Made by a program: the position numbers and the translations under genes
Notes under the pieces: model-generated
What the model was told of the DNA's origin: nothing
The model's input: the letters and a program-made list of their open reading frames with translations, nothing else
Database searches by the model: none
Shown here: piece by piece, positions 194-59,815 of the stretch
How the letters are laid out: every line of letters starts with the position of its first letter
Position numbering within the stretch: position 1 is the stretch's first letter
Virus record (IMG/VR): IMGVR_UViG_3300005340_000041
Coordinates: 1 to 60,662 of that record
DNA: 60,662 bases
From: a virus
Strand: one strand, 5' to 3'

Positions 194-424
194 TTACAGA
201 CCTGCAGATTTTCTAACGTCCTTAACATATGCATCAAACGGATCTTCCACGAGAATAACTTCTTCAAGATATTCATTGGGATGTTGATAGTACCGGGATC
301 TACCATAACAAGACCCACAAGCGTTTAGCAGATAGCCGAATTCTTTCTCTCCTAAATATGTGATTGTGCCCGTACACCCACATCGTGTGGCTGCGGTAGT
401 TATAACATCGCCGATTTCGAACAT
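194..424 (-). CDS. small protein with FVxxVR tail
   Basis: A 76-residue protein of unknown function. It starts MFEIGDV, like the other beta-barrel-type small proteins of this phage (the proteins ending at 50113 and 49901 also start with a GDV/GDT strand), and has four cysteines in the middle (CGC, CGSC) that may bind zinc. It ends VEDPFDAYVKDVRKSAGL, a clear copy of the FVxxVR tail. AAAGGAAC lies upstream of the ATG, and a promoter candidate lies at 457-485. Last gene of the leftward cluster. Function unknown; the start is well supported. Confidence 0.75.
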   Translation of the reverse strand: MFEIGDVITTAATRCGCTGTITYLGEKEFGYLLNACGSCYGRSRYYQHPNEYLEEVILVEDPFDAYVKDVRKSAGL

Positions 425-456: not shown

Positions 457-485
457 AGTTTAGCACGAATTTTGGGTTCTGTCAA
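457..485 (-). promoter_or_regulatory. sigma70-like promoter candidate
   Basis: Reading the minus strand, a perfect TTGACA (485-480) is followed after 17 bp by TAAACT (462-457), four of six matches to TATAAT. It would start transcription about 30 nt before the ATG at 424, leaving room for the visible Shine-Dalgarno sequence. The -35 box overlaps the stop region of the gene at 482-661. Seen by eye only. Confidence 0.4.
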
Positions 486-661
486 TCTTCAGGGTCCCAC
501 AAATCGCGGCCAAAATCGGCACGAACAAATTTAATGAACGTTTCAAACTCGTCTTCTGGGCCGTGAGGATAGGTGAGCGCTTCGTACAAGGTCCATGAAT
601 CGATCATACCCATTCTATACATCTGCAAAACAGTAAGTGGGCTTAGTCCTCTGGGTCCCAT
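482..661 (-). CDS. 59-residue FVxxVR-tail protein
   Basis: Small protein of unknown function. A GGGAGAG sequence precedes the ATG. The C-terminal half reads EDEFETFIKFVR and then GRDLWDPED at the end. The neighbouring gene (643-807) ends in nearly the same way (EFDEFVKYAR, GRELWDPED), so the two are tandem paralogues. This pair carries a longer extension after the tail motif than the other members of the family in this phage. Confidence 0.65.
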   Translation of the reverse strand: MGPRGLSPLTVLQMYRMGMIDSWTLYEALTYPHGPEDEFETFIKFVRADFGRDLWDPED

Positions 662-807
662 AGCTCTCTCCCATATTCTGCCCTTGCGTATTTTACAAAC
701 TCGTCAAATTCATCAGGCTCTTCCTATACACTTGCCGCTTCATAGCAAAGCTGTAGATAGTCATAGCTCATCGGCCGATCTATCAGGATCTTGTATGCGT
801 CCTCCAT
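643..807 (-). pseudogene. FVxxVR-tail paralogue interrupted by an in-frame amber
   Basis: The reading frame starts at ATG 807 after AGGAGGGAGA, runs MEDAYKILIDRP..., hits TAG at 726-724, then continues in the same frame as EEPDEFDEFVKYAR...LWDPED to a TAA at 645-643. The part after the amber aligns with the paralogue at 482-661, and the part before also matches its LYEA region, so this is one gene with a nonsense codon. No start codon exists after the amber in frame. Either a recent point mutation or read-through; TAG is an ordinary stop elsewhere in the genome (for example at 35185 and 27981). Confidence 0.55.
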
Positions 808-1138
808 TCTCCCTCCTAACTTCTTTGACCCATCTATAAAACGGATCTTCAGCGAAATCTTGCAGCATTTGTATAGCCGTATCCAAGCGTTGTTTTGTAA
901 GCTCCGCAAGTCCTGTATTGTGTATGAAGAGTAAATCTGTGCGATCTATAACTATGGTCGTATAATACCACTCATTGTTATAGGTTTGGCCGTATAAACT
1001 TGCTACAATCTGAGTAGATGCTTGCTCGGGTTTAAAGCCGCTAAAGTACGTGTGCTCAAACGTAAGACCTTTAGCATTGTTCTTTATGTATTGATGGCTG
1101 ATAGTGGTTAGAGTGTCCAGACTTTGATCTATTTTCAT
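761..1138 (-). CDS. FVxxVR-tail protein, first leftward gene
   Basis: 125 residues, function unknown. The middle looks like a small alpha/beta or beta domain (YFSGFKPEQASTQIVASLYG, then a strand-rich stretch). It ends EDPFYRWVKEVRRENG, a clear tail motif with a short extension. It is the first gene of the leftward arm, diverging from the small terminase across a 27-bp gap. There is no Shine-Dalgarno sequence; TATAAG lies 7 nt before the ATG, so it may be leaderless. Its 3' end overlaps the interrupted gene at 643-807. Confidence 0.7.
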   Translation of the reverse strand: MKIDQSLDTLTTISHQYIKNNAKGLTFEHTYFSGFKPEQASTQIVASLYGQTYNNEWYYTTIVIDRTDLLFIHNTGLAELTKQRLDTAIQMLQDFAEDPFYRWVKEVRRENGGRIQDPDRSADEL

Positions 1139-39119: not shown

Positions 39120-39247
39120 TATTTATCCTTTACTTGCCATTGTCGTTTGCACTTCCCGCATCTGGTAGGCATAGTTTCTTTGCGGATATTCCACGAATGT
39201 CCACAGTGTTTACACGGTCCTGCTTTGGGCAGACTAATCTTCTTCAT
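39119..39247 (-). CDS. 42-residue zinc-ribbon protein
   Basis: MKKISLPKAGPCKHCGHSW... with C-x2-C at both ends (CKHC and CGKC), the minimum of a zinc ribbon. The stop overlaps the next ATG (TAATG) and the start overlaps the previous gene end, which support it as real. A second ATG lies three bases upstream (39250). Probably nucleic-acid binding. Confidence 0.6.
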   Translation of the reverse strand: MKKISLPKAGPCKHCGHSWNIRKETMPTRCGKCKRQWQVKDK

Positions 39248-39626
39248 CATCACTTCCCAGCTTTCGTATACCAACACCCGCCTTTCCCGGCTGACCTTCT
39301 ACCGTACACGCCTGTATAACATGCGCCGGAATATTATGCTCTAACAGCTTACCTGCATCAATCGTTCGCCGAGGTTTAGAAGCCGAACGCCGATAGATTA
39401 CATACGTATCCCCGCCGTACTGCCATTTAATTTTACGCTTACCGGGTTCAACCTCCTCTCCACGAACTTCCCGTACCCAATTTTCGAATTCATCCTCGTT
39501 ACTACGATCTAATACGGCAGCAATAACTTCATCACACGCTATTACAATGGACCGTAGGCGTTTAATTTCGTTCGCAGCGTTAATTCGCTGCTTTAGAACC
39601 TCGTCGGCTTCATCCAAGGAGAACAT
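39234..39626 (-). CDS. protein with internal FVxxVR-type motif
   Basis: 130 residues. The segment NEDEFENWVREVRGEEV (about 46-62) is a copy of the tail motif, here followed by a basic domain (KIKWQYGGDTYVIYRRSASKPRRTI) and a disordered end. So the motif is not always C-terminal. The first 45 residues form helices. Function unknown. Confidence 0.65.
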   Translation of the reverse strand: MFSLDEADEVLKQRINAANEIKRLRSIVIACDEVIAAVLDRSNEDEFENWVREVRGEEVEPGKRKIKWQYGGDTYVIYRRSASKPRRTIDAGKLLEHNIPAHVIQACTVEGQPGKAGVGIRKLGSDDEED

Positions 39627-40179: not shown

Positions 40180-40610
40180 TGTAGTTGTTTCAACCCCGCA
40201 GTGTAAGAAAGAATGTCACCTTTACGCTGATACTTCCTGATCTTTTCTATTTCTACAGGATCGTCCCTAAACCCTGCTTGGTCCACTGCTATAGGAATAA
40301 TACTCACATGACCATAGAGCGCAGCAAAAGTTAAATACGCCCTATAAATATGATATCTATGCGTAACTAAAGCCATTGGTTGTCCCAAGCTGAAGTTTCG
40401 AGTCAACTCTTCCGCCTCTTCTAGAGTAGAGTTACCAAATGGCTGAATAATAGACGCCCTGTACAATTCAGCAATAGCGCCTGCTTGTATTAATCTTTCT
40501 TTGTATACTGCTAAATTTGTATGACGCAAAACAACCACTAGTTGCGGTGTTATTTCTACTTTATTAACTCTATCCAAAGTATCACAGAAAGTCTCCCGCA
40601 CGGAACGCAT
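40161..40610 (-). CDS. DUF218/YdcF-like protein
   Basis: 149 residues from ATG 40610, six bases after AAGGAGG; the ATG at 40628 overlaps that site. The pattern STLEEAEELT then LVTHRYHIYRAYLTFAALYG and IPIAV is that of DUF218 (YdcF, SanA, ElyC), proteins tied to envelope or sugar metabolism. The gene is directly downstream of the nonulosonate synthase, overlapping it by 29 nt, which suggests a shared pathway. Confidence 0.65.
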   Translation of the reverse strand: MRSVRETFCDTLDRVNKVEITPQLVVVLRHTNLAVYKERLIQAGAIAELYRASIIQPFGNSTLEEAEELTRNFSLGQPMALVTHRYHIYRAYLTFAALYGHVSIIPIAVDQAGFRDDPVEIEKIRKYQRKGDILSYTAGLKQLQWHFSQ

Positions 40611-41640
40611 CCTCAACCTCCTTATCATATTTCAAAACCCGCCCAATAAGCCGATCTATTTCATACGGCGGTAACGATCCCGAAGGGGCAGGGCGTAGTG
40701 CCACGAAATCCACCTCGGCGAGCTTCAAGCCCGCCTTGAGCGCCCTAGCAGCCCGCAGGCAACGGCGCTGGAGGACCACGGTTTCCTGCTCGTTCGCTTC
40801 AACCCGTTTCCGCCCGCCTCCTAGTGCAGCTTCAAGATTGCGAACCTCGTGGACCATTTCCTGCCATTCCTGTGGTGTGGAAGAAAATGTATGATCCGGA
40901 CCGGGGCGATGAGGGGCGTCCGTGAAGTGTTTCTCAATCACTCGTGCTCCTAGCGCAACCGCTCCCATAACTGCTGTGTAGCCAATTGTATGATCCGACA
41001 ACCCCAACACGAAGTTTGGATACATGGTTCGGAAGTGTATCAGCGTTTTAAGTTGTAGGTATTTAAAGTTGTCTGGATCGGCGGTATAGTTTGTGTTGCA
41101 CTGCATCAGACAAACATCAGAGCCGATAAATCGCCGCATTGCACGATCGACATCGTAGATATCTGAGGCCCCACAGGCTATAAATACAGGCTTGCCATTT
41201 TCTGCAATTTTATCTATAAGTCGAAGATATGTAATGTCCCCGCTGCCGATCTTAAAAGCATTCACATAAGGATCAAGATGATCTACACACTCCAGATCAT
41301 ACGGCGTAGACATAAACTCAATACCAATCTGGTCACAATATCTCTTAAGGATTGACGTCCATTCCCACGGCACGCTCAAACGCCGGAAGGCATCTACAAC
41401 ATCCTCTCTCCATCCGGCTTGATGTGCTAATTTGCCGACTTCAGCAAACCCACGCTCGGATACGATATGCTCTGCGCGAAAATGTTGAAATTTGGCACAA
41501 TCTGCGCCCGCCTTTTTGGCCAATTCACAGAGATCTAATGCTCGATTTATATCTCCATCATGATTAGCAGAAATATCAGCGATAAAATATGTGGGATGGT
41601 TATCGCCTACAAATCTATTCCCTACTTTGAATTCAGCCAT
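40582..41640 (-). CDS. NeuB/PseI-like nonulosonate synthase
   Basis: 352 residues. It condenses a six-carbon hexose or mannosamine derivative with phosphoenolpyruvate to a nine-carbon acid. Visible are IADISANHDGD (20-30), GADCAKFQ, FMSTPYD, FKIGSGD, CNTNYTADPDN, GLSDHTIGY and EKHFTDAPHRPGPDH in the TIM barrel, and a C-terminal antifreeze-like SAF domain (LRAARALKAGLKLAEVDF to the end). The 3' end (about 40680-40860) is markedly GC-rich. Which acid is made cannot be told. Confidence 0.9.
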   Translation of the reverse strand: MAEFKVGNRFVGDNHPTYFIADISANHDGDINRALDLCELAKKAGADCAKFQHFRAEHIVSERGFAEVGKLAHQAGWREDVVDAFRRLSVPWEWTSILKRYCDQIGIEFMSTPYDLECVDHLDPYVNAFKIGSGDITYLRLIDKIAENGKPVFIACGASDIYDVDRAMRRFIGSDVCLMQCNTNYTADPDNFKYLQLKTLIHFRTMYPNFVLGLSDHTIGYTAVMGAVALGARVIEKHFTDAPHRPGPDHTFSSTPQEWQEMVHEVRNLEAALGGGRKRVEANEQETVVLQRRCLRAARALKAGLKLAEVDFVALRPAPSGSLPPYEIDRLIGRVLKYDKEVEDAFRAGDFL

Positions 41641-42158
41641 TCTAATGCCTCTTTTTTGTATGAATTCAATACGGCGCCCACAGCGGCCAGTTCAAGCAGC
41701 GCTAGTCCAGAAATGAGACCGCTTCTTACAGATGCTGGAAAATCCGTGTGCCATATGGCCCAATCAAAGGACACGGCACACAGTAATGCTGCCAGCAGAA
41801 CGAAACTCCAAACCGCAAACATCGCCCATCCAACAATCGCCCTGTTCTTTGCCATTCTTGTCTCCATTACAAACTTAGTAAACTCGTCTTCTTCAATTTC
41901 TTCTTTTGTTGTAGATCTCCAAGCGCTTGCCGCAGCAGCATACGACTGCCACACTTGCGATGAGACTGCTGACGAAGAGGCTGGGTTGGAAGCCATTATA
42001 GCATTCAAGCGATTGATATAATTTTGCAGTGTTTGCTGATTTGTGGGGCTTGATGCTATTGCTGGCGCAAATCCATGACGCGGATCATTAGGCGGAGGTG
42101 TAGCTCCATGACATGCAGTAGCCAACTTTTTATCTACTTCGCTAGGATCACTTGGCAT
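41622..42158 (-). CDS. two-segment membrane protein with internal FVxxVR-type motif
   Basis: 178 residues. The N-terminal part is soluble, Ala/Ser/Pro-rich; EEDEFTKFVMETRMAK (about 88-103) is a copy of the tail motif placed just before the first of two transmembrane segments (IVGWAMFAVWSFVLLAALLCA and SGLISGLALLELAAVGAVL). It overlaps the start of the synthase gene by 19 nt and the end of the methyltransferase gene by 25 nt. The motif at a membrane boundary may be a docking site. Confidence 0.6.
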   Translation of the reverse strand: MPSDPSEVDKKLATACHGATPPPNDPRHGFAPAIASSPTNQQTLQNYINRLNAIMASNPASSSAVSSQVWQSYAAAASAWRSTTKEEIEEDEFTKFVMETRMAKNRAIVGWAMFAVWSFVLLAALLCAVSFDWAIWHTDFPASVRSGLISGLALLELAAVGAVLNSYKKEALEWLNSK

Positions 42159-42907: not shown

Positions 42908-43062
42908 GAGCATCCTTTTAGATTATGTATTATGTATGCAATCGATACTGCAAAAGCTATAATTAGAAACATTACTCCAAAAACGCGATCTATATCGTCC
43001 AGTATCCATTTGACAAAATCGATTAAGGTTTTCATTTTCATTGGAGACTCTTCGTATGCCAT
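42904..43062 (-). CDS. 52-residue membrane protein
   Basis: MAYEESPMKMKTL..., with GGGAG eight bases before the ATG, one transmembrane segment (VFGVMFLIIAFAVSIAYII) and a Cys near the end. Its TGA overlaps the ATG of the methyltransferase gene. Function unknown. Confidence 0.6.
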   Translation of the reverse strand: MAYEESPMKMKTLIDFVKWILDDIDRVFGVMFLIIAFAVSIAYIIHNLKGCS

Positions 43063-43709
43063 AACACTACTCCCTTAAACCACGTAATCTCGCACGGCGC
43101 AAACACACGAAACGACCAATGTGTTTGTCCCGTATCATTGTTCACAGGTACAACAAACTTGCGATCATTAATTTGAACAACCACTTCATATAAAATCTTA
43201 GAAGTCGGCCGATCTCCCTCCACTGTATATGATGTATACCAAAGCGGAGAATTATAACCGTGCCCGCACATCCACTCTAGTGGATTAATAGACGGGTCAT
43301 TAGTAAGCCGAATCTCTTCCAGCCAACCAAAAACAATCTGCCCACCACACCGTAGTGATGATTCGTATTCGGCTACAATTTTTGGATCATAACCTTTAGA
43401 TTTAATGGAAACCAACCAACTTTGCGCCTTAGCCAGATTCGCCACTGCGATAGGACTCATTTGATCATCAGAGAATTTGCAATCCGGGGAGGGAACCAAG
43501 GCGCCCGTTGAAACCGCCAACGAGGTAGCACGACGGCTAGTACGACCCGAAGGGGGTAACCAGTGATCAATCTCCGGCACTTGATCGAGCACGCCATTGC
43601 TCCTACGCGGAGCTGACAGTCCGGTTCCAACGGCTGACTGGCGCGCTCGGTCCAATGTCGGAGCTGTGGTACAGGCGAGAAGAAGGACTAAGAGCATGCT
43701 TGTTTTCAT
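43038..43709 (-). CDS. predicted lipoprotein
   Basis: 223 residues from ATG 43709, after AGGA. The signal MKTSMLLVLLLAC ends in a lipobox with C13. The mature part contains GWLEEIRLTND and a C-terminal beta region (EVVVQINDRKFVVPVNNDTG). It would be lipid-anchored outside the inner membrane. A superinfection-exclusion role is possible but untested. A longer frame upstream of the ATG is not used. Confidence 0.65.
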   Translation of the reverse strand: MKTSMLLVLLLACTTAPTLDRARQSAVGTGLSAPRRSNGVLDQVPEIDHWLPPSGRTSRRATSLAVSTGALVPSPDCKFSDDQMSPIAVANLAKAQSWLVSIKSKGYDPKIVAEYESSLRCGGQIVFGWLEEIRLTNDPSINPLEWMCGHGYNSPLWYTSYTVEGDRPTSKILYEVVVQINDRKFVVPVNNDTGQTHWSFRVFAPCEITWFKGVVLWHTKSLQ

Positions 43710-44114: not shown

Positions 44115-44411
44115 TTATTTCTTCTTTCTAGAATGCCTCTCCACCTTAACCATTGCGGTCAATTCATCGTCATCCACACCAATCACCGGCAAACCTTTTC
44201 TAAAAGACTCTCCAGAATCTCTTTGGATATTTGGAGAATTATAAATAACTTGAATGGGCTGAAATACGATGAAATGCTGACTATCATCACTCTCTGCCAA
44301 CGTTCGCACAGCTTCGATCGCCTCATCTAATGATGCGATTTTAGCACTACTTCCCTGACTATTAACATCACACATATCTTCTACTGTGTCTTCTCCTACA
44401 ACAAGATACAT
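44115..44411 (-). CDS. hypothetical protein
   Basis: 98 residues: mixed beta/alpha start (MYLVVGEDTVEDM), DEAIEAVRTLAES helix, and a basic tail (ERHSRKKK). It directly precedes the gene ending at 43756 by two bases. Function unknown. Confidence 0.55.
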   Translation of the reverse strand: MYLVVGEDTVEDMCDVNSQGSSAKIASLDEAIEAVRTLAESDDSQHFIVFQPIQVIYNSPNIQRDSGESFRKGLPVIGVDDDELTAMVKVERHSRKKK

Positions 44412-45857: not shown

Positions 45858-48527
45858 TTATTTCAGTGCTGCCCAATCATACGCCGAGCTTCCCTTTGCC
45901 GCGATCGGCACAGACAGCTCCATAGATTGTGCAGCTTCATATACGACTCGTTGAATTACTTCGTCCTCAACGCCTTCTTGTGTCTCTAGAATCACTTCAT
46001 CGTGTACGGTCAACAAAGGTTCACAATAAACTCCTTTCTCCCAATATTCCGGCAATACATTGTCCATAATTCGTTTGAGCCAGATTTTCAGCAAACCAGC
46101 AGCCGTCGACGTAACCGGCATATTAGCTGCCCACTTACGGGATTCTTCCCGGACACGATCAACACAGCTCCATACGCCCTGAACGTACCGACGACGGCCG
46201 AACAAATCTTCTACGTATCCAACAGATTCTGCCTGTGTATGGCAACGATCTATATAGTCTCTAACTCCGGGGTATGCTTCAAACCAATTGTTAATATAGT
46301 CAACACATTCATCTTTCGTGGTCGTAATGCCCAACAGTGCTAACTCACTATTCAACTTTCCAGCACCGCCGCCGTACATAATCAGAAAGTTGATTGTTTT
46401 ACTAAGCAAGCGTTCCTGTGTAGTAATTAGCTCCATCGGCTTATTGTAAATTAAAGACGCAGTTGCTCTGTGGATATCTTTCCCGGTACAGAATACGTCG
46501 ATCATATTTTGATCTTGGGAAAGATGCGCCGCAACGCGCAGCTCAATTTGGTCTAAATCCACAGAGACCAACCGGCATCCCGGTCGGGGGATAAATCCTT
46601 TACGTATGAGTCTTCCACGTTCTGAGCGTGTTGGCTGATTTTGTAGGTTTGGATCACGCGATGCCAACCGCCCCGTATGCGTAACATGGAGCAGAAATCG
46701 TGTATGAATCCAGCCATTAACATCCGCGTATCCCGGCAAAGTTTCAACATATGTGCCTAAAAGCTTAGATAATTCACGGTAATCGGTGATAATATCAACG
46801 GCTTCTCTAACGTCAGCGCGTCTAACATTCTTAATCTTCAGCGTTTCTAGCGTCTTTTCATCGGTAGAGCGCTTTCCGTGAAGTGTCTTAACCTTCAGAA
46901 TGTCGTATATAAACTCGGCGGTTTGTAGTGGCGAAGCAGGATTAATTGGCTTACCAGCCAATATAGTCAACTTCTTGCTCAACTCTTCCTGCTCACCACG
47001 AAACTGTACTTCTAAATTCTTAAAATGCTCTTTGTCAATCAATATGCCATTACGCTGCATACGATCGATAATAGGAATGATCCCCTTATCGATCTGATAT
47101 ACGTTCCACAAACCTTCCCGCCTAACAATCGGCGCCAGTTTATTGAACGTTCGCAGTGTAATATCTGCGTCTGCCGCTGAGTAATTCACCGCTGTTTCAA
47201 GTGGCACATCATCCAGCGTAACCTCCCTCATTCGCCCGATGTGATCTTCAACAGTCGAGCGAAGTGTGTTGTCAATCGATGTCCATCCTTCTCTAAGCCC
47301 AGTTCCACGTTCAAGTAACCCGCGTACGATTCGACCAATACTTCTAGGCTTAGTGACTCGCCCAACTCCATTGTTGTCGAAGACGAGTTTTGGAGCCGGG
47401 AGTGGCCACCCTGTTCCATCTCCTCCACATACGGAGCATTTTTGAGATTTAAGTTTGGCTGGTTGTCGTTTGTAGGGGACAAGCTCTTCTCCTGTTCCGC
47501 TACATAGGATGCATATGTTTTTGAGAACGAGTTGGAGATATTCTCGACAGATTTTCTCTTCGGCTTCTTTGACGACGTTTTCATAGTGCGGTTGTTTTAT
47601 CCCAAATAGTTTAAACGCTAACGGCTTCAATCCTCGGGGTAAGTGAGGCAGCAGATATGCCAAAAGCATCGTATCTTCAACACGATCAAGAGGAACAGGC
47701 GTATGTAACGCTTCCAATACCGGTATATCGTATAAGGCATTGTGCATTACGACTCGTTCCCGGAACGCCTGTCTTATGGCATCTTTGGCGGGACTGTCCT
47801 CACTCCCCCGAAGAACAAACGCGCGCCCCTCCTCAGCGCTGATTGAAAGACCCCACGGCTGCGAAACAGAACCTTCCGTATCCACCGCCACTAGGGCCGG
47901 TTGACCAAGTGAGAAATTGTCGTCAACCTCACTATAGTGTAGTACGCCTTGCGGCTCATAGCAAGAAATTTCACCACGGATCAGACGACCGACTTGCTGA
48001 AAATCCCAGAAAATCTGCTGATAATAACGTTCTGCCTGATGTAATCCTGCTGCCGGGTGTAAGCACACAATCATTCGCTTATCAGGATATCGTGGACAGA
48101 TCATCGGTACACCATGAATCTCGTCCATATTCACATCATCCCAATTTCCAGCACGAATATCTTTTACCCACTGTGTGAACGAATCACCATCAGACAGCAA
48201 CCAGCGTGCGGCAACCTTGCCCACTGCAATAATGATCTCTGGGTCACAGACCATTATTTCGGCCATCAGCTCTTCTTCATCACGCTGAATGTCAATTTCG
48301 GTCGGATCAGAGTCGTCTTCATCTGTACGATATTTGACTACATTAGTGATCGCAAAGTCCGACCGGCGCATTTTCGCAGCGCGTTTGAGATATACCCATT
48401 CAAGATCAGCTCCAGCGGCGCCCTGAAACGGGATACCGCTATTCGCCTCTACTTTTCCGGGTCCTTCCCCAATAATTAGATACTTACAGGGAAGCTTTCC
48501 CCAAATTGGAACCTTACGACCAATCAT
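45858..48527 (-). CDS. uracil-DNA-glycosylase/exonuclease/DNA polymerase A fusion
   Basis: 889 residues. Residues 1-185 look like a family 4 uracil-DNA glycosylase (GEGPGKVEANSGIPFQGAAG 20-39; TNVVKYR; LHPAAGL 156-162). A 3'-5' exonuclease follows (ExoI VAVDTEG 213-219, ExoII HNALYDIPVL 262-271, ExoIII YSAADAD 449-455), split by a zinc-finger insert (C339-x2-C342, C364-x2-C367). The family A polymerase has motif A SVDLDQIELR (655-664), motif B with K710 and Y718, and motif C VHDEV (841-845). The glycosylase part also holds DSFTQWVKDIR (115-125), like the FVxxVR tail. Confidence 0.9.
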   Translation of the reverse strand: MIGRKVPIWGKLPCKYLIIGEGPGKVEANSGIPFQGAAGADLEWVYLKRAAKMRRSDFAITNVVKYRTDEDDSDPTEIDIQRDEEELMAEIMVCDPEIIIAVGKVAARWLLSDGDSFTQWVKDIRAGNWDDVNMDEIHGVPMICPRYPDKRMIVCLHPAAGLHQAERYYQQIFWDFQQVGRLIRGEISCYEPQGVLHYSEVDDNFSLGQPALVAVDTEGSVSQPWGLSISAEEGRAFVLRGSEDSPAKDAIRQAFRERVVMHNALYDIPVLEALHTPVPLDRVEDTMLLAYLLPHLPRGLKPLAFKLFGIKQPHYENVVKEAEEKICREYLQLVLKNICILCSGTGEELVPYKRQPAKLKSQKCSVCGGDGTGWPLPAPKLVFDNNGVGRVTKPRSIGRIVRGLLERGTGLREGWTSIDNTLRSTVEDHIGRMREVTLDDVPLETAVNYSAADADITLRTFNKLAPIVRREGLWNVYQIDKGIIPIIDRMQRNGILIDKEHFKNLEVQFRGEQEELSKKLTILAGKPINPASPLQTAEFIYDILKVKTLHGKRSTDEKTLETLKIKNVRRADVREAVDIITDYRELSKLLGTYVETLPGYADVNGWIHTRFLLHVTHTGRLASRDPNLQNQPTRSERGRLIRKGFIPRPGCRLVSVDLDQIELRVAAHLSQDQNMIDVFCTGKDIHRATASLIYNKPMELITTQERLLSKTINFLIMYGGGAGKLNSELALLGITTTKDECVDYINNWFEAYPGVRDYIDRCHTQAESVGYVEDLFGRRRYVQGVWSCVDRVREESRKWAANMPVTSTAAGLLKIWLKRIMDNVLPEYWEKGVYCEPLLTVHDEVILETQEGVEDEVIQRVVYEAAQSMELSVPIAAKGSSAYDWAALK

Positions 48528-48810
48528 CTACAATCCCTGCCTTTTTGCGAACCTGTCTAACAAAAACCGTTAATTCATCTTCAACAAATTCCCAATACTG
48601 ACGCCGATACGCAACTTCAGGCGAATCTATCACAACTACATCCCCGATCTGATAATGATGATGCTCATATCCTACTGCTAACACCCTACCTTTTGCATTT
48701 TTAGTTTTATCCGACGGAATCTCGGTTATTCTGAACTCCGCACCAGCCTCAGCTCTCCCAAGCCAACGAATAACATCCTCAACTTGGAGCTTCCTATTGT
48801 TATCCTGCAT
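48514..48810 (-). CDS. beta-barrel-like protein with FVxxVR tail
   Basis: 98 residues. A beta-rich N-terminal part (EDVIRWLG...RITEIPSDKT...YQIGDVVVID) is followed by WEFVEDELTVFVRQVRKKAGIVDDWS, one of the best copies of the tail. It overlaps the start of the polymerase gene by 14 nt, so it is made just ahead of it. Function unknown. Confidence 0.75.
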   Translation of the reverse strand: MQDNNRKLQVEDVIRWLGRAEAGAEFRITEIPSDKTKNAKGRVLAVGYEHHHYQIGDVVVIDSPEVAYRRQYWEFVEDELTVFVRQVRKKAGIVDDWS

Positions 48811-49257: not shown

Positions 49258-49934
49258 GCTGATATCTCCGCATTCACCATATCTACAATCGTGGGGAAAT
49301 GAGCAGCAACACGCTTACTCAATTCATCACCAATTCCGGGAATCGAGGCCGCTATGAGCCTCTTTGTAGATGGTTTGTGGAGAAGTGTAGGCTGCTGTGA
49401 CTTATCCAGCCTAAATGCCGACGAATGCTTTTCATAGTCCTTACCCCACAAATGATACAGATTGAGAATCATTGAGGCAGACTCAGAACGATCTATAGAA
49501 CGTTTGATAACAATTCGCCCGACTTCAGCGATGGAGTTTAGCCAGTTATCAAACGCTCGATAGGTTGTTTGAGAGAATGACGACCATAACGGCTTGCCAT
49601 CTTTCCACGTCCGGAACTGTAGAATACCATTAGAACTCTCACCATACTCTCCTTCTATAAGAATGTACACCCGCTTATAGATTTGGGACATCTTCGGAAG
49701 CTGTTCGCCGGTGAGCCGCCCATCATGCATACACTGTAGCGCTTCTTTAGCCGTCTTATACTCTATACCAATAGGCATCGTAAACGGCCCCTCTGGTCCG
49801 CAGCCGAAAAACGCCGCATCGCCAGCATCTAGTGTGGTACGTTTACAAATATCTGGAGGGAGAAGAGGGATTAAACCCTTCGATCCCGCTCTACCATCAA
49901 TTAGGAGCAATTTGCTTCCTCTCTGGTTTGCCAC
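49188..49934 (-). CDS. ERCC4-type nuclease with helix-hairpin-helix motifs
   Basis: 248 residues. XPF/ERCC4-like core: LLIDGRAGS (10-18), GDAAFFG (38-44) and IGIEYKTAKE (56-65), where IEYKT replaces the classic ERKT. Two C-terminal helix-hairpin-helix motifs (IPGIGDELSKRVAAHF and IPGVGKTKAQKIY) bind DNA. It probably cuts branched or flap structures in recombination with the RecT-like and PD-(D/E)XK proteins downstream in the cluster. Confidence 0.85.
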   Translation of the reverse strand: MANQRGSKLLLIDGRAGSKGLIPLLPPDICKRTTLDAGDAAFFGCGPEGPFTMPIGIEYKTAKEALQCMHDGRLTGEQLPKMSQIYKRVYILIEGEYGESSNGILQFRTWKDGKPLWSSFSQTTYRAFDNWLNSIAEVGRIVIKRSIDRSESASMILNLYHLWGKDYEKHSSAFRLDKSQQPTLLHKPSTKRLIAASIPGIGDELSKRVAAHFPTIVDMVNAEISAWTEIPGVGKTKAQKIYKSLREP

Positions 49935-50128
49935 ACAAAAGCTTCAGAATCGTCCATCCAACGTGGATCATCCAAGGAGCGCAATTGGTATTCTACCATC
50001 CGACTAAAAGGGGTGTCTTCTAAAACTAAGCGAGCTATCAAGTACTTCCTGTCTTCCTCTATTTGCACTATCCTCCACCTAGTTCCTGATGGGGTCCATA
50101 TAATTGTATCTCCTACTTCATACGACAT
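49901..50128 (-). CDS. beta-barrel protein with FVxxVR-type end
   Basis: 75 residues, ATGA-coupled to the gene before it. It starts SYEVGDTIIWTPSGTRWRIVQIEED, a small SH3-like beta-barrel pattern, and ends WMDDSEAFVWQTREEANCS, a divergent copy of the tail. It overlaps the nuclease gene by 34 nt. Function unknown. Confidence 0.65.
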   Translation of the reverse strand: MSYEVGDTIIWTPSGTRWRIVQIEEDRKYLIARLVLEDTPFSRMVEYQLRSLDDPRWMDDSEAFVWQTREEANCS

Positions 50129-50379
50129 TTCGCTTTCCTCCGCGCTGACTTTACAAACTCTCCAAAATCGTCTAGTTCGACAAAACCTTCATCTATTGTC
50201 GGACTCCTAATAAGCTCTCCCCTCCGATACGTAACTGATCCTTCGTACTCTCTTTTATTTCTTCCGGGTCTCAAGCACTTCAATGTCCAATTATTAAACT
50301 CGTCTTTACCTACAATTTCCCATTTGGAATTATATGCACAAGCCCTCTTCCATTGATAAACGTCCCCAATCTCCGGCAT
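50113..50379 (-). CDS. beta-barrel protein with FVxxVR tail
   Basis: 88 residues. It starts PEIGDVYQWKRA..., like the 49901 and 194 proteins, then a beta-rich domain (KWEIVGKDEFNNWTLKCL) and ends VELDDFGEFVKSARRKAKCRMK. It overlaps the next gene by 16 nt. Function unknown. Confidence 0.7.
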   Translation of the reverse strand: MPEIGDVYQWKRACAYNSKWEIVGKDEFNNWTLKCLRPGRNKREYEGSVTYRRGELIRSPTIDEGFVELDDFGEFVKSARRKAKCRMK

Positions 50380-50382
50380 ACC

Positions 50383-50643
50383 TCATTCTCCGATTCCTGC
50401 CTTAGCTCTAACTTCGTGCACAAATTCTTCTAGCTCGTCTACAAGCTCCCATTGCTCACTAGGCCATTGGACCCTAGTCTGAACACCTACTTTATCCTTA
50501 TATTCCTCACTATTTCCCGCTGAAACCAGAGTTCCCATACATCCGAAACCAGTTATAGCAGTCAAATCTATATCCCATACTGTAGTATGAGCAGAACGCC
50601 TCCCTGCCCTATTCGGCTGCGGAACCATCCATCTATATAACAT
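50383..50643 (-). CDS. FVxxVR-tail protein
   Basis: 86 residues. N-terminal part with an RRSAHTTVWDIDLTAITGFG segment, probably beta-rich, and a tail WELVDELEEFVHEVRAKAGIGE. It lies immediately after the RecT-like gene. Function unknown. Confidence 0.7.
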   Translation of the reverse strand: MLYRWMVPQPNRAGRRSAHTTVWDIDLTAITGFGCMGTLVSAGNSEEYKDKVGVQTRVQWPSEQWELVDELEEFVHEVRAKAGIGE

Positions 50644-51485: not shown

Positions 51486-51750
51486 TATTTTCTTTCTCCC
51501 GCTCTTCTCTTAGTGCTTTACGTCGTGTGTTAATTTTATCCACAACTTCCGGGTAAAGCTCCGCCGCAATCTCTGCAATATCAGCCATAATAGAAATCGC
51601 TTTAGGAAGCTCTGTAACGAGTATATTATTAATCTGGATTGCCGCTCTAGCAGAAGCGACAGTCGAATTCATCCAATTTGTACATCCACAACGCACACAA
51701 GACTTATCGCTATGTGGACTATGCTCACACACCACACAAATCGCTTCCAT
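51427..51750 (-). CDS. zinc-finger/helical protein
   Basis: 107 residues. An N-terminal zinc motif (C5-x2-C8, C18-x2-C21) is followed by a helical bundle-like stretch and a charged, disordered C-terminus (EREKENNGNNETAASNTSS). It overlaps the RecT-like gene by 59 nt. Function unknown; a partner of the annealing protein is possible. Confidence 0.55.
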   Translation of the reverse strand: MEAICVVCEHSPHSDKSCVRCGCTNWMNSTVASARAAIQINNILVTELPKAISIMADIAEIAAELYPEVVDKINTRRKALREEREKENNGNNETAASNTSSKSDPTN

Positions 51751-51982
51751 TTTCTTCTCTTACCTCTCTTACCCAGTCAGCAAAATCATCCTCTAAGATC
51801 CAGTTTTCTGGATACAAAGGTTGTGCTGAAAAACGCAATCCTACCCGCCAATGACATTCTTTATTACTCTGTACACACCTAATAGTTGCGCCTTCAGATT
51901 CACTAATCGATTCTACTCTCCACATAGAACCGTCTTCTCTGTAAGATAAAAGGTCCCCAACTACTGGTCGACTAGTTAACAT
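51725..51982 (-). CDS. beta-barrel protein with FVxxVR tail
   Basis: 85 residues from ATG 51982. It starts SRPVVGDLLSYREDGSMWRVESI, a beta-barrel pattern like the proteins at 50113 and 49901, and ends WILEDDFADWVREVREENGSDLCGV. A longer frame from 52030 is not used. It is a clear tail-family member. Confidence 0.7.
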   Translation of the reverse strand: MLTSRPVVGDLLSYREDGSMWRVESISESEGATIRCVQSNKECHWRVGLRFSAQPLYPENWILEDDFADWVREVREENGSDLCGV

Positions 51983-51986
51983 AAAC

Positions 51987-52310
51987 TCACCAAAATTCCT
52001 TTGATTCCCGCTGTAACCCTTGTTGCACATCTAATCCGGCCTTACGCACACGATCCAAATAATTCTGCACGAAAGCAAATTCAGTCATTGGGATATCGCC
52101 GTAGCAAATAATCGTGACCATCGCTGTATTCTGAGTGCCTTCGTTAGCTTCAATCGCAATGTGAAATTCGTTCGCTTTATTAATTAGGTATTCTGCGGCA
52201 ATTTCGGCAGCAGTTTCCGTAGGATATACAACTCGTATACCGTTTGCTCCCTGCCAGATGATTACTGAATTACCGTCTGCTTCTGCCTCATATAGTTTTC
52301 TTTGCGCCAT
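51987..52310 (-). CDS. hypothetical protein
   Basis: 107 residues, alpha/beta, with TAAEIAAEYLINKANEFHIAI and a helical LDRVRKAGLDVQQGLQR end. It lies between two tail-motif proteins but has no such tail itself. Function unknown. Confidence 0.55.
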   Translation of the reverse strand: MAQRKLYEAEADGNSVIIWQGANGIRVVYPTETAAEIAAEYLINKANEFHIAIEANEGTQNTAMVTIICYGDIPMTEFAFVQNYLDRVRKAGLDVQQGLQRESKEFW

Positions 52311-52512
52311 CCACCCCTCCCTCCCGAACTTTTAAAACGAATTCCACTAAAGGATCTGTGTACTCCCAATATTCACCTACTTCATTGAAGAATTCTCTAA
52401 CCATATCACTGCACTTTGGACAAGTATCTACCAAATTACGACAACCAAACTTATCCACATGAGTCCATTCTCGTTCACACAAGTCACAATAATGCAACCT
52501 ATTGCCCCTCAT
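52288..52512 (-). CDS. zinc-finger protein with FVxxVR tail
   Basis: 74 residues. N-terminal zinc finger YCDLCEREWTH...CPKC and the ending WEYTDPLVEFVLKVREGGVDG. The ATG overlaps the previous stop (ATGA). It shares the C-x2-C-x3-W-x-H...C-x2-C core with the proteins at 55646-56676 and 58236. Confidence 0.7.
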   Translation of the reverse strand: MRGNRLHYCDLCEREWTHVDKFGCRNLVDTCPKCSDMVREFFNEVGEYWEYTDPLVEFVLKVREGGVDGAKKTI

Positions 52513-52640
52513 ACCCCAGCCTCATCACGGACATCAACAACCCACAGCGAAAACTCATCTAAAGAAATATTCAAGCGTCTACGCTCTTCGTCTGTGAGTC
52601 CCAAATTCAAGATGTCAGAAACTTTGCGCGCAGCCTGCAC
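52509..52640 (-). CDS. 43-residue FVxxVR-tail protein
   Basis: From GTG 52640, with AGGAAAG upstream: MQAARKVSDILNLGLTDEERRR..., ending SLDEFSLWVVDVRDEAGV. The short N-terminus is helical with no zinc motif, so this is almost only the tail motif. The stop overlaps the next start (ATGA). An in-frame stop lies just upstream. Confidence 0.6.
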   Translation of the reverse strand: MQAARKVSDILNLGLTDEERRRLNISLDEFSLWVVDVRDEAGV

Positions 52641-52655
52641 GCTTATACTTTCCTG

Positions 52656-52931
52656 TCAGCCCCAACCCGTATAATCGCACCCAGCGGAAATAGACAAATA
52701 GCGCCCGTCAGCAAGCTTAAACACTCCTACCCAGTCAGCTCCGTCATTTTCGCCTTCAACCAACGCAAGAATTTCGGTAACGTCCTGCAAGTAGATAAGA
52801 GCATTTACAGCTTTAGGGTCCTCTCCGAGCACAGGTTTAGGATACCCCGCATTCTCAAATATATACTTCCAGTCATAGCTTTCTAGGAAATCAGAAGGAG
52901 TCAATTCTTTAGTAAACAAACTTGTATCCAT
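52656..52931 (-). CDS. hypothetical protein
   Basis: 91 residues, acidic, alpha/beta, with VLGEDPKAVNALIYLQDVTEIL and a C-terminal beta stretch ending CDYTGWG. ATG-coupled to the nuclease gene before it (TAATG). Function unknown. Confidence 0.55.
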   Translation of the reverse strand: MDTSLFTKELTPSDFLESYDWKYIFENAGYPKPVLGEDPKAVNALIYLQDVTEILALVEGENDGADWVGVFKLADGRYLSISAGCDYTGWG

Positions 52932-55059: not shown

Positions 55060-55299
55060 CTATTCTAACTCAACTGAAGCAGGCGTGTCAACAATTCCAG
55101 CGACTTTTCGTGTCTCTTGTACAAAGGAAACAAACTCGTCCTCATACCACCAAAACTTGGCATCCAAAGCCCACTCATGTGGATTACACGCGGGGCAGTC
55201 CTGCGTAAAACGCATTAGGGGTCGCTTCGGAGCCTCACATCCCACGTGTCCGTACCAACCATGTTTAGAGCAATTATGACGGCAATCTTTAGACGACAT
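55060..55299 (-). CDS. zinc-finger protein with FVxxVR tail
   Basis: 79 residues. Two Cys/His clusters (CRHNCSKHGWYGHVGC and CPAC) and the ending WWYEDEFVSFVQETRKVAGIVD, followed by a short extension. Last of the tandem zinc-finger/tail genes before the helicase-side cluster. Function unknown. Confidence 0.7.
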   Translation of the reverse strand: MSSKDCRHNCSKHGWYGHVGCEAPKRPLMRFTQDCPACNPHEWALDAKFWWYEDEFVSFVQETRKVAGIVDTPASVELE

Positions 55300-55510
55300 T
55301 TGCGGCCCTTCGTACAGCTTTTACGAACGTTGTAAGCTCGTCTTCCTCAAAGAAAAAGCCCAGCCTAAATCGTGGCTCGCACTCATTACAAGGCTGAGAT
55401 ATGCCTAAGGTAGACCGAAGACTAACGCAGCAGTTGGAATGCCCCCACCAACGATCACATAGACCGCACCAATGCTTAGCTATTTGCTCCTGCTTCTCTT
55501 CAACGGCCAT
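55289..55510 (-). CDS. zinc-finger protein with FVxxVR tail
   Basis: 73 residues from ATG 55510 with GGAGGGAG upstream. WCGLCDRWWGHSNCC...CNEC is a zinc site, and the end is FFEEDELTTFVKAVRRAANVV. Overlaps the next gene by 11 nt. Confidence 0.7.
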   Translation of the reverse strand: MAVEEKQEQIAKHWCGLCDRWWGHSNCCVSLRSTLGISQPCNECEPRFRLGFFFEEDELTTFVKAVRRAANVV

Positions 55511-55662
55511 ACTCCCTCCGCTTTTGTCCATTCTTTCCGAGAATCATGAATTTCTGTGCGAGCAATATAAACCTGTATACACTGCGGGCAGAAATCGCTT
55601 CTATAATTTATGTTGTGTATAGGACAGCGTTTGCCGTAAAGCCAGCTAATCAAGGATCTCAT
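55480..55662 (-). CDS. small zinc-binding protein
   Basis: 60 residues. CPIHNINYRSDFCPQC gives a C-x2-H with C-x2-C pair. No FVxxVR tail. It overlaps both neighbours, which is usual in this cluster. Function unknown. Confidence 0.55.
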   Translation of the reverse strand: MRSLISWLYGKRCPIHNINYRSDFCPQCIQVYIARTEIHDSRKEWTKAEGVWPLKRSRSK

Positions 55663-55858
55663 TTAAAGCCTTCTCAGAAGTTTTTCGGCAAGTCTTAACG
55701 AAAACTGTAAAATCATCCTCGACATAGGACCAACCCGGTGTTCCTCGATCGTCGCATTTAGGACAAATGCGTAGACCACTATCCTTATGCCGCAAAGAGC
55801 AGCCCTCGTGCGTCCACTCATTTCCGCACAATTCACAGTCGTGGTATACACTCGCCAT
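55646..55858 (-). CDS. zinc-finger protein with FVxxVR tail
   Basis: 70 residues. Zinc core C8-x2-C-x3-W-x-H-x2-C...C-x2-C (DCELCGNEWTHEGC, CPKC) and the ending SYVEDDFTVFVKTCRKTSEK followed by a helix (ALNEILD). It is a paralogue of the proteins at 56058, 56261 and 58236. Confidence 0.75.
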   Translation of the reverse strand: MASVYHDCELCGNEWTHEGCSLRHKDSGLRICPKCDDRGTPGWSYVEDDFTVFVKTCRKTSEKALNEILD

Positions 55859-55861
55859 ACG

Positions 55862-56065
55862 CTACCCCTCTATATCCATTAGCTCGAAGATTTCATAGAA
55901 GCTCTTATCTACCGCCTCATCAAGCATATCTCTTGTCCAATGTTTATTAGGCTGCAAATCCCCGTGTTCTAGCGCGCCCTTCTTAAACTTATCAATGAAT
56001 ATAATAAGCGCGCGCTTATGCCGGGGTGAAAGGTCACCGACATAGACGTAATCAGGATTAGACAT
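55862..56065 (-). CDS. hypothetical protein, weakly MazG-like
   Basis: 67 residues from ATG 56065, just inside the previous gene. GALEHGDLQPNKHWTRDMLDEAVDKSFYEIFELMDIE recalls the second half of MazG-like nucleotide pyrophosphohydrolases (EExxD and YEI), but it is far too short to be sure. Function unknown. Confidence 0.4.
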   Translation of the reverse strand: MSNPDYVYVGDLSPRHKRALIIFIDKFKKGALEHGDLQPNKHWTRDMLDEAVDKSFYEIFELMDIEG

Positions 56066-56264
56066 TTGCGGCCTTTCGTGTTTCGCGGACAAACTTAGTT
56101 AGTTCGTCTTCTACGTACTCCCAAAAGCCTCCGCCTACAATAGCAGCCACATCAAGGCGTTCATAATCCGAATCTGCACACTCAGGACAAGTAAGGTTTG
56201 GAGATGTATTGTCGCATAAAGGATGTGTCCACTCCAAACGGCATTTATAGCACAGATGGCTCAT
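56058..56264 (-). CDS. zinc-finger protein with FVxxVR tail
   Basis: 68 residues. CYKCRLEWTHPLC...CPEC and the end FWEYVEDELTKFVRETRKAANV. ATGA-coupled to its upstream paralogue at 56261. Between finger and tail lies a variable acidic linker. Function unknown. Confidence 0.75.
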   Translation of the reverse strand: MSHLCYKCRLEWTHPLCDNTSPNLTCPECADSDYERLDVAAIVGGGFWEYVEDELTKFVRETRKAANV

Positions 56265-56479
56265 ACTTTTAATGCCTCTCTAGTCTTACGCACAAATCGG
56301 GTTAGTTCATCTTCAGTGTATTCCCACCAACCACCGCGCAGCATAACTAGTGCGTCTATGTCATACAATTCTTCCTGTGACACAGCACATTCGGGGCAAG
56401 CAGTATCCTCTTCCAGAGGTGAAGTTATACACCCACTATGCGTCCATTCAGACTTACATTTTGGGCACATATGACTCAT
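56261..56479 (-). CDS. zinc-finger protein with FVxxVR tail
   Basis: 72 residues. CPKCKSEWTHSGC...CPEC and WWEYTEDELTRFVRKTREALKV. Its nearest relative is the next gene at 56058; the two are probably a recent duplication. ATGA overlaps on both sides. Confidence 0.75.
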   Translation of the reverse strand: MSHMCPKCKSEWTHSGCITSPLEEDTACPECAVSQEELYDIDALVMLRGGWWEYTEDELTRFVRKTREALKV

Positions 56480-56676
56480 ACCAACCCCGCTTCTTTGCGT
56501 GTTTTCCGTACGTAGACTTCAAAATCGTCAACATAGTACCACAGGTCGCTAGAAGCTTCTGTAAGTACACATGACGGACATGGTAAAGGACTCCCATCAG
56601 AACGAAAACCCTGATCTAGTGTATGATTATGCTCCCAACGTTTACCACAAAACACACATTCATGTGCAATAAGCAT
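56476..56676 (-). CDS. zinc-finger protein with FVxxVR tail
   Basis: 66 residues from ATG 56676, with AGAAAGG eight bases upstream. CVFCGKRWEHNH...CPSC and the end LWYYVDDFEVYVRKTRKEAGLV. It starts two bases past the end of the helicase gene and is coupled to the two paralogues after it. Confidence 0.7.
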   Translation of the reverse strand: MLIAHECVFCGKRWEHNHTLDQGFRSDGSPLPCPSCVLTEASSDLWYYVDDFEVYVRKTRKEAGLV

Positions 56677-56677
56677 A

Positions 56678-58249
56678 TCAAAGCCTTTCTGCCGGAGTGG
56701 GCAGTTCTGTAACCCTAACAACCGCTGAGCGTATCCAATCGGGGAGCATGTTCTTATGTTGGCCCAGATAAGCGCCAAACGCTTTATCCGTAATCAAACA
56801 TTCATTTCTATCGTCTTTAGAGCGCATAGCACGGCCGATTGATTGCACTAGTTTTAATCCCGCATCGTACCATCCATAATCCGGATTATCTTCACTGCGA
56901 GCTTTGTGTAGAGGGTCTGTGATATCTGCAAAGGGGATCTTAGGAATAATCGTATATTCGGCTAATGTTCCCGGCAAATCAATCCCCGTCATCCAATTCG
57001 GGCCAACGAGAATTGCGGGGTCAGGAGCAGCTTTAAATCGCTGAAGTGTTAACGTAGACGCTGATGAAGCGGCGGATGAACTAGCAATCATGAGATTTGC
57101 ATACCGGGAGTATTTTAATAGCAGCTCAGTGCGGGCATAAGATACTGTATGTATTATCCCCTTACGATCTAACCGCTGTGAGATAAAATCGTCTACTTCT
57201 TTCACCCATTGGCGCTCTTCGTCCTCTGACATCCCATACTTCATTTTAATTACAGGATAATAGTATATAGGACGCCGCTCAATTGGGAATGTAGATGGAT
57301 AATTATAGAAATCCATATCCTGATCTAATATCCCAAGAAGCCGGAGCGTATTCGGCACCATCGTAGAAGAAGCACAGATTACTTTAGCCGCATTCGTGAA
57401 TAATAAAGGCTCGGCATACTCATGCACCCAAATCGGCTGAAATAGTATATGCTGCTTCTCGGGGAACACACGCCATTCCGACGACATCATACGCAACCGC
57501 GAAAGATGGCTCTCTACGGACTGCAAAGTACGCAGCTTAACTAATTTCTTTCTCTTTCCACGCGCAATCTCTCGCTTCTCCAACCGCACAGCAGCACGGA
57601 TTAGCGGTAGCTCACGATTCGCCCAATGAACCCACATAGCTATATTCGTATTTGTAGGCATCTTGGATGTAGTGAGATTGCCATAACATCGCGGAAACTT
57701 AACTGCCAACATACGAGTTAGCCATTGTTCCATCGTATGGCATTCGTCAGCGCATATGATATCGAACTGTCCCCAACCTTCGGTAAACATATTGGCGGAT
57801 ATCCACGCCGCATAATTAGTGACTACCAACTTCTTATACTTTGCAGCATTAATCTTATCGTAGTAAGTACATCCTCTAAGTCTAAGGCTGCATTCATCGC
57901 CGAAATGACACGGTCCTTCAGCCACAGACTTAGCTGGTGTACCATCGTAGAATTCGCCGCCGACGTCCATCGCCTTACAGCGATAGTTACTTTTTCCGCG
58001 AATATCCAAAATGTCCAAATATTTGAACTGTTCCGCATACTGTTTTTGCAACTCCTTCGACTCGGTCAGGATCAAGGCCCGCCCGCCCGATGCGAGCGCC
58101 GCCCCAACGAGGGAGATCGACTTGCCACCGCCCGTGGGCACGCAATGCGCCGAAAAGCGCCTCGCCGAAGACAGCGACCGCGCGATGACGTCAAACTGCC
58201 CTTCCCGCCATGCATCAACCAACAGACCGAGATCATTAGGAGTTGTCAA
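56678..58249 (-). CDS. XPD/DinG-like SF2 helicase with iron-sulphur cysteines
   Basis: 523 residues from TTG 58249, with AGGA upstream; a TTG at 58282 is less likely. Walker A PTGGGKS (38-44), a DECH Walker B (168-171), and four cysteines (C91, C114, C120, C127) in between, as for the FeS cluster of XPD/DinG helicases. Motif VI-like QSIGRAMRS is near the end. It probably unwinds DNA in replication or repair. The first 180 bases of the gene (about 58070-58210) are notably GC-rich. It replaces a conventional replicative helicase, which is not seen in the window. Confidence 0.85.
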   Translation of the reverse strand: MTTPNDLGLLVDAWREGQFDVIARSLSSARRFSAHCVPTGGGKSISLVGAALASGGRALILTESKELQKQYAEQFKYLDILDIRGKSNYRCKAMDVGGEFYDGTPAKSVAEGPCHFGDECSLRLRGCTYYDKINAAKYKKLVVTNYAAWISANMFTEGWGQFDIICADECHTMEQWLTRMLAVKFPRCYGNLTTSKMPTNTNIAMWVHWANRELPLIRAAVRLEKREIARGKRKKLVKLRTLQSVESHLSRLRMMSSEWRVFPEKQHILFQPIWVHEYAEPLLFTNAAKVICASSTMVPNTLRLLGILDQDMDFYNYPSTFPIERRPIYYYPVIKMKYGMSEDEERQWVKEVDDFISQRLDRKGIIHTVSYARTELLLKYSRYANLMIASSSAASSASTLTLQRFKAAPDPAILVGPNWMTGIDLPGTLAEYTIIPKIPFADITDPLHKARSEDNPDYGWYDAGLKLVQSIGRAMRSKDDRNECLITDKAFGAYLGQHKNMLPDWIRSAVVRVTELPTPAERL

Positions 58250-58475
58250 CGATTCCTGCCTTCTTTCTCGTAAAAGAAACAAACGCTGTTAGTTCGTCAT
58301 CTACATAATTCCAGCTAGAGCTAAGCAGCTTTTCTTGTGTGGGCTGTCCTTCTGGAATATCAGCATAACAAAGCGGACACGGGAAAGGATACCCACCTCT
58401 TGAGCATCCACCTACAGTGCAATCGTCGAACTTCCACTCTCTTCCACACACTCCACAAACATGAAATTGACTCAT
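58236..58475 (-). CDS. zinc-finger protein with FVxxVR tail
   Basis: 79 residues. CGVCGREWKFDDC...CPLC and SWNYVDDELTAFVSFTRKKAGIVD. GGGAG lies just before the ATG. It overlaps the start of the helicase gene by 14 nt. Family member as above. Confidence 0.75.
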   Translation of the reverse strand: MSQFHVCGVCGREWKFDDCTVGGCSRGGYPFPCPLCYADIPEGQPTQEKLLSSSWNYVDDELTAFVSFTRKKAGIVDNS

Positions 58476-58750
58476 ACTCCCGCCTTTATCCTAGTATCCT
58501 TTACCCATTGAATAAACGGATCGTACTCCTGACATTCTGTTTCTTGATCAAGATCGGCAGTCCAGAAGATGTGATCAGGTTGATATGGATACTCAGGATC
58601 AACCGTTGGGTCCCCACAATCTGGACAAACAACTCTAATAAATATCGCCTGATCAAACAGAAATAGGCCATTAGAATACCATGGTCTACGGCATTTAGGG
58701 CACTTATACCCAAAGCCTAACTTATACTTTTTCATCGTCGTCGCCGCCAT
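58472..58750 (-). CDS. zinc-ribbon protein with FVxxVR tail
   Basis: 92 residues (ATG 58735 is an alternative start). Zinc ribbon CPKCRRPW...CPDCGDP, a variable linker with PYQPDHIFW, and CQEYDPFIQWVKDTRIKAGV at the end. Overlaps the next gene downstream by ATGA. Confidence 0.7.
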   Translation of the reverse strand: MAATTMKKYKLGFGYKCPKCRRPWYSNGLFLFDQAIFIRVVCPDCGDPTVDPEYPYQPDHIFWTADLDQETECQEYDPFIQWVKDTRIKAGV

Positions 58751-59367: not shown

Positions 59368-59561
59368 TGGGAAGATTCTCCGGTTACCCTGCATGGTCTA
59401 TCTTGCGTATCCCACCCGCATCCGCCCTTATAACAAACAGGACATAAAAGCCCAGCGGATTGAGATACACATACGCACTCTTCATTGTGATATAGAAATG
59501 TTAGGATTTTGTCTGCTTTTTCCCGCTCTTCTTCGCTTTTTCTTGACACTCTTTCACCCAA
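59364..59561 (-). CDS. small cysteine-rich protein, paralogue of the next gene
   Basis: 65 residues, opened by a TTG at 59561 that lies 61 bases inside the preceding gene; a GTG at 59549 is an alternative start, and no clear ribosome-binding site was found. Helical start, then the Cys-rich part ending CRVTGESSQ, like the paralogue downstream. Confidence 0.5.
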   Translation of the reverse strand: MGERVSRKSEEEREKADKILTFLYHNEECVCVSQSAGLLCPVCYKGGCGWDTQDRPCRVTGESSQ

Positions 59562-59815
59562 TATTCAAAATCATCCACTAACTCCCAACCTTCCCCATAT
59601 CCATTCTGTTTGTCTGTCCTGAAACAATCTTTGTATCCAATTTTATATTCTGAATCATACTTTACTTTAGACGCAAGGTGTTCTGGAGAACGCTCAACGA
59701 CTGTGTAATAGGCAATCGAACCCCGCACACAATCTACCCGAACAATCATGCGGTAGTAGCTACTACAAGGACTACCTCGCATCCATCTATAGTATTGTCC
59801 CTTTTTCGACACCAT
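59501..59815 (-). CDS. beta-rich protein with FVxxVR-type end
   Basis: 104 residues. Starts KKGQYYRWMRGSPCSSYYRMIVRVDCV, a beta-barrel pattern, and carries WELVDDFEYWVKECQEKAKKSG near the end, a divergent tail. AGGAATGG lies before the ATG. Function unknown. Confidence 0.65.
   Translation of the reverse strand: MVSKKGQYYRWMRGSPCSSYYRMIVRVDCVRGSIAYYTVVERSPEHLASKVKYDSEYKIGYKDCFRTDKQNGYGEGWELVDDFEYWVKECQEKAKKSGKKQTKS

Follow-up and report, generated by a model that had tools for sequence, protein, structure and literature searches.

A short tail motif common to zinc-ribbon paralogues, other small proteins and the DNA polymerase of one phage: a candidate docking peptide

Address tags for protein assembly are, to our knowledge, so far known for capsids, microcompartments and jumbo-phage nuclei. 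The capsid targeting sequence of phage T4 is N-terminal. The internal proteins of T4 are diverse defence proteins that have only a capsid targeting sequence in common (PMC3012670). In bacterial microcompartments, which are cellular, encapsulation peptides join a short helical element and a variable linker to unrelated cargo (PMC12339742, PMC11157265). The Chimalliviridae, jumbo phages with a protein shell, import chosen proteins, those of replication included, to one place, the phage nucleus (PMC11087766).

Here, we analyzed a 60,662-nucleotide stretch of DNA from a soil-type phage (positions 1 to 60,662 of IMG/VR record IMGVR_UViG_3300005340_000041, hereafter the window), a record that may be without its ends. 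Many of its small proteins carry a tail of ~15 residues with the consensus D-[EDP]-[FL]-x-x-[FWY]-V-[KR]-x-[VT]-R-x-x-A-G. See Table 1 for the features discussed. Like the T4 sequence, the tail is one short conserved sequence on diverse small proteins of a single phage, and the T4 internal proteins are the nearest described design. Unlike the T4 sequence, which is N-terminal and serves head assembly, the window tag stands at the C-terminus of about 20 proteins and within three others, and it lies on early genes and inside the DNA polymerase. The nearest biophysical counterpart is the encapsulation peptides, to which the tag is likened in its layout; these are cellular, whereas the window tag belongs to a phage in which no shell protein was recognised. 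The Chimalliviridae offer a parallel in how a phage can gather chosen proteins, but the window genome measures 61 kb, its structural relatives are podovirus-like, and genes of the nucleus-forming kind were not recognised in it. We place the tag in a known class, that of shared targeting or docking peptides. Its own sequence matches no described tag that we found: a literature search for phage proteins that have a C-terminal motif in common returned nothing relevant, and searches of Pfam, PHROGs and PDB with the tail gave no characterised relative.

Eight open reading frames in the region 55060-58750, at the coordinates given by the first-pass annotation and all on the minus strand, encode a zinc-ribbon-like head, a linker and the common C-terminal tail. 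With a ninth gene at 52288-52512, the window holds nine of this type. A comparison of the heads joins all nine in one diverged family, with a mean identity of 31% for the heads (20% without the cysteine columns) and 42% for the tails, and with variable linkers of 11-30 residues. We propose that this set grew by duplication. The pattern C-x2-C-x3-W-x-H...C-x2-C, which had been assigned to seven of the genes, is exact in five; the exceptions are 58236, with W-x-F, and 55060, with C-x2-H. Likewise, the ATGA overlap attributed to the genes holds at three junctions (58472/58236, 56476/56261 and 56261/56058), while at two more the overlap is 8-11 bases and at the remainder there is none. The array is interrupted rather than contiguous, with a gene for a DinG/YoaA-like helicase (56678-58282) inside it. 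The zinc-ligand pattern is present in the heads, which score at best E ~0.006-0.02 against the Pfam zinc-ribbon families, none reaching the gathering cut-off; among solved structures (PDB), they match generic zinc fingers only.

Table 1. Tail-bearing genes, internal motifs and doubtful members in the window
Feature	Coordinates	Strand	Tail or motif	Remark
Zinc-ribbon + tail (ribbon variant)	58472..58750	-	DPFIQWVKDTRIKAGV	
Zinc-ribbon + tail	58236..58475	-	DELTAFVSFTRKKAGIV	
Zinc-ribbon + tail	56476..56676	-	DDFEVYVRKTRKEAGLV	
Zinc-ribbon + tail	56261..56479	-	DELTRFVRKTREALKV	
Zinc-ribbon + tail	56058..56264	-	DELTKFVRETRKAANV	
Zinc-ribbon + tail	55646..55858	-	DDFTVFVKTCRKTSE	
Zinc-ribbon + tail	55289..55507	-	DELTTFVKAVRRAANVV	Start 55507 or 55531
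Zinc-ribbon + tail (C-x2-H variant)	55060..55299	-	DEFVSFVQETRKVAGIV	
Ninth zinc-ribbon + tail	52288..52512	-		Leave-one-out borderline for the tail; head a clear member of zinc-ribbon family
Small protein, other head type + tail	59501..59815	-	DDFEYWVKECQEKAK	
CDYTGW-type + tail	52509..52931	-	DEFSLWVVDVRDEAGV	In-frame TGA ~52656; end of phage homologue tail-less
Small beta-type + tail	51725..52030	-	DDFADWVREVREENG	
Small beta-type + tail	50383..50643	-	DELEEFVHEVRAKAG	
Small beta-type + tail	50113..50379	-	DDFGEFVKSARRKAK	
Small beta-type + tail	49901..50128	-	DDSEAFVWQTREEAN	
Small protein + tail	48514..48810	-	DELTVFVRQVRKKAGIV	
17-residue insertion with motif	48141..48191	-	DGDSFTQWVKDIRAGNW	In UDG-like N-terminal domain of DNA polymerase (45858-48527)
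Possible weak member	44115..44411	-	DELTAMVKVERHSRK	Fails leave-one-out
Internal motif	41622..42158	-	DEFTKFVMETR	Directly before hydrophobic, membrane-like segments
Internal motif	39234..39626	-	DEFENWVREVR	Found by motif
Small protein + tail	761..1138	-	DPFYRWVKEVRRENG	
Relic or read-through ORF	643..769	-	DEFDEFVKYAR	Tail after in-frame TAG
Head like portal C-terminal motif + tail	482..661	-	DEFETFIKFVRADFG	
Small beta-type + tail	194..424	-	DPFDAYVKDVRKSAG	Non-coding sequence follows

The tail is common to the members of the array, as had been claimed, but it is not specific to them. It also closes ~10 further small proteins with heads unrelated to zinc ribbons, and the motif lies inside three proteins: the DNA polymerase, 41622-42158 and 39234-39626. 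In this way, the tail or motif occurs with at least five unrelated head types. One group of small heads (194, 49901, 50113, 50383 and 51725), weakly similar to one another, is called beta-type here from a reading of the sequence, not from a structure prediction, and matched no solved structure. Other tail-bearing heads are of the CDYTGW type, resemble the portal C-terminus, or are without any relative. No head meets the Pfam or PHROGs cut-offs for a characterised family, anti-defence and toxin families included.

A first profile, made from seven tails, detected the same sequence in further ORFs. A second profile, trained on 21, found 23 ORFs at E < 5e-4, all on the minus strand, with the next at E = 0.54; its training set held the very sequences that it then found, and three further checks were therefore added. 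Shuffled proteins, at 20 times the ORF set, reached a best E of 0.13 against the second profile. Leave-one-out profiles, from which the close relatives of each member were also removed, recovered 20 of the 21 tails ahead of every plus-strand ORF; 52288 passed narrowly (0.62 vs 0.75), and 44115 was the failure. When all C-terminal 35-mers were compared with no motif supplied, 44 similar pairs were found, against 1 in shuffled sequence, and 16 genes formed one component. Treated in the same way, 28 other genomes stayed near the null, none with more than 4 pairs or with a component larger than three genes. In the six-frame ORFs of the window, a search for the strict motif D.[FL]..[FWY]V[KR].[VTCI]R gives 12 hits, always on the minus strand, against 0 in these comparison genomes (28 genomes, 2.63 million residues); for a loose motif, the counts are 24, again all minus strand, and 4. 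The number of tagged proteins depends on the threshold: 20 by leave-one-out, with the polymerase insertion and 39234 added by motif and with 44115 and the 643 relic doubtful. Conservation is concentrated at Asp0, Phe/Leu2, aromatic5, Val6, Val/Thr9, Arg10 and Ala13, with Asp and the aromatic residue in 21/21 tails and Val and Arg in 20/21 each.

At shared amino-acid sites, the zinc-set tails had the same synonymous codon 77 times, where codon usage alone predicts 76.6, and for all tails the figures were 599 and 570. Synonymous sites among the copies are saturated. Codon identity at the level of chance means that it is the protein sequence that has been conserved and that the copies are old. 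The earlier view that the duplicates were retained under selection is supported, as the amino acids of the tails are alike though their synonymous codons have been randomised. Recent spread of a DNA repeat was also considered and is ruled out by the same chance-level codon match.

The DNA polymerase is of family A, and its N-terminal domain matches family-4 uracil-DNA glycosylase. The motif-bearing insertion sits there between LLS and DDVNMDEIHG. In an alignment, the polymerase relatives from G001, G020, G023 and MW202455 (L004) have no residues at this site. The trained profile scores it at E = 1.3 only, and we accept it as a tag on the basis of the strict motif and the lineage-specific insertion rather than of the profile score.

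We propose, with moderate confidence, that the tail is a docking peptide private to this lineage, through which roughly two dozen early proteins, among them the polymerase, are brought to one putative common partner. The minus strand is taken to be the early strand from its replication genes. The tail would form an amphipathic helix that begins with an invariant Asp, has its Phe/Leu, Phe/Trp/Tyr, Val and Val/Thr positions along the same side, and includes a near-invariant Arg. On a helix, tail positions 2, 5, 6, 9 and 13 share one face; a test for helical periodicity gave no more than a suggestive result (p ~0.07-0.09), and the hydrophobic moments of individual tails are mostly unremarkable. 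By putting the tag on some two dozen early proteins, the phage lineage would have brought all of them to the same partner, which could be a hub encoded by the phage itself or a factor of the host located where replication takes place, and the zinc ribbons, small beta-type domains and other heads would add different binding functions. The helix, the docking, and the partner's existence and place are what we infer from these patterns. The partner most likely acts in early infection or DNA replication, because the motif is inserted in the phage DNA polymerase and is never found on a structural plus-strand gene. More tentatively, the tag may be a virus-private address code by which the early proteins and a loop of the replicative polymerase come together on a single hub. 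Such a hub would be an organising centre linked to replication, in a phage that is not one of the known nucleus-forming kind; we regard this wider scheme as possible rather than probable. Should the tag organise replication, address tags for protein assembly would be found in a small phage. According to the description of the PHROGs tool, ~87% of its phage protein families are without known function. A tag common to two dozen uncharacterised proteins and a polymerase would be one handle on them all, since its binding partner would point to their place and phase of action.

The short helix-like element, the variable linkers (11-30 residues) and the many different heads would also fit a self-association tag, in which the peptides bind each other and give mixed oligomers or a condensate, much as encapsulation peptides do with microcompartment enzymes. 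Those peptides are described as short helical domains that sit on disordered linkers and drive condensation (PMC12339742). However, no shell or compartment gene was recognised among the annotated window proteins, and the invariance of Asp and Arg points to a specific partner, so that we hold self-association to be unlikely. We give slightly less credence to a virion-targeting tag, by which the small proteins would enter the head during packaging and be injected, as the T4 internal proteins are. The design would be the same, with diverse heads and one shared targeting sequence (PMC3012670), and one tagged head resembles the portal C-terminus; but the motif is also in the DNA polymerase and on no structural-strand gene, the T4 sequence is N-terminal where the window tag is mostly C-terminal, and no prohead protease was identified.

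The first-pass annotation had favoured a zinc-finger array diversified for host targeting or anti-defence, which would leave the tail secondary. Nine zinc-ribbon paralogues whose heads vary more than their tails are in keeping with such an effector array, but the tail is also on unrelated heads, the heads match no characterised family, and the presence of the motif in the DNA polymerase argues for a docking role instead; we consider the effector array very improbable. Hardly credible is a tail that binds nothing and is a mere by-product, whether as a signal for degradation, as a constraint from the ribosome-binding site of the next, overlapping gene, or as a remnant of fusions under no selection: several tails do overlap the next start codon, which their last residues encode, but the same tail occurs with no following gene (194-424) and at internal positions, a ribosome-binding site does not account for the hydrophobic core, and the codons vary freely. 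A C-terminal degron in particular needs a free C-terminus, and the three internal motifs argue against it.

Among named phages, Tunturi 1 and 2 of Acidobacteriota come closest, with 23.7% identity in the portal and 28% in the capsid protein. The Tunturi phages are podovirus-like isolates (PMC11924767), and an acidobacterial host for the window phage is our guess from these nearest isolates. Alignments of portal and capsid drew ~100 IMG/VR loci, the closest at 65% for the capsid (G004, G020) and 52% for the portal (G001); single-protein relative searches with the helicase and the polymerase returned no relatives. The window shares with the Tunturi phages and the IMG/VR relatives a related portal and major capsid protein and a similar genome size, but the tail is in none of those examined. 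It was absent at any meaningful score from ten relatives read nearly whole and sixteen read largely or wholly. When further records were searched with the tail profile and the window was included as a positive control, the window returned 23 matches and the other records a single one, weak and partial (E = 0.03); these other records included fragments, for which absence counts weakly, while it is firm in long genomes at this sensitivity. The comparison across related phages proposed earlier gave a different answer, as ~30 long relatives carry no tail at all. Absence from relatives means that the tag is not required by this phage family as such. In the same region, G001 has small zinc-ribbon-like proteins without the tail.

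Codon-pattern scans for the tail gave 0, 4 and 2 loci in IMG/VR and 7 in genomes, none with multiple tails. A tblastn search with the consensus found a single internal match, in Pseudomonas phage Lu11 (E = 3), with no neighbouring tails. We also looked in 28 genomes for a private tail of other sequence and found none beyond weak groups of three genes, in G002, G021 and G026, whose frequency was close to the null. In G021, the genes at 2932-3168, 49321-49725 and 51494-51805 have weakly alike C-terminal cysteine-rich ends (HASDC...LDRELF). In G001 (L061-L062), three paralogues at 41154-43452 on the minus strand have a common block like FSDTVANGNGTRLAKFI...KLGxVT.

Several minor observations were made along the way. 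The portal C-terminal motif (LQMYRMGMIDSWTLYEAL) is echoed in small proteins near the small terminase gene, at 482-661 (minus strand) in the window and at 20377-20643 (minus strand) in G002, where the protein is tail-less. The ORF at 643-769 (minus strand) is a second copy of the 482-661-type protein, with a TAG before the tail, and is a relic or is read through. At the position of the in-frame TGA of 52509-52931 (minus strand), the phage homologue MW202608 (GGCDYTGWLCQSS) carries Cys; the gene may be broken, the sequence may be in error or the codon may stand for selenocysteine, and a small hairpin after this TGA is no stronger than in shuffles (z -0.85). Finally, sugar genes at 4166-5110, 32444-33640 and 33637-34326 (plus strand) and at 40582-41640 (minus strand) suggest synthesis of a nonulosonic (sialic-type) acid. 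The first three are named from sequence only, and the last matches the N-acetylneuraminate synthase NeuB (E 6e-75).
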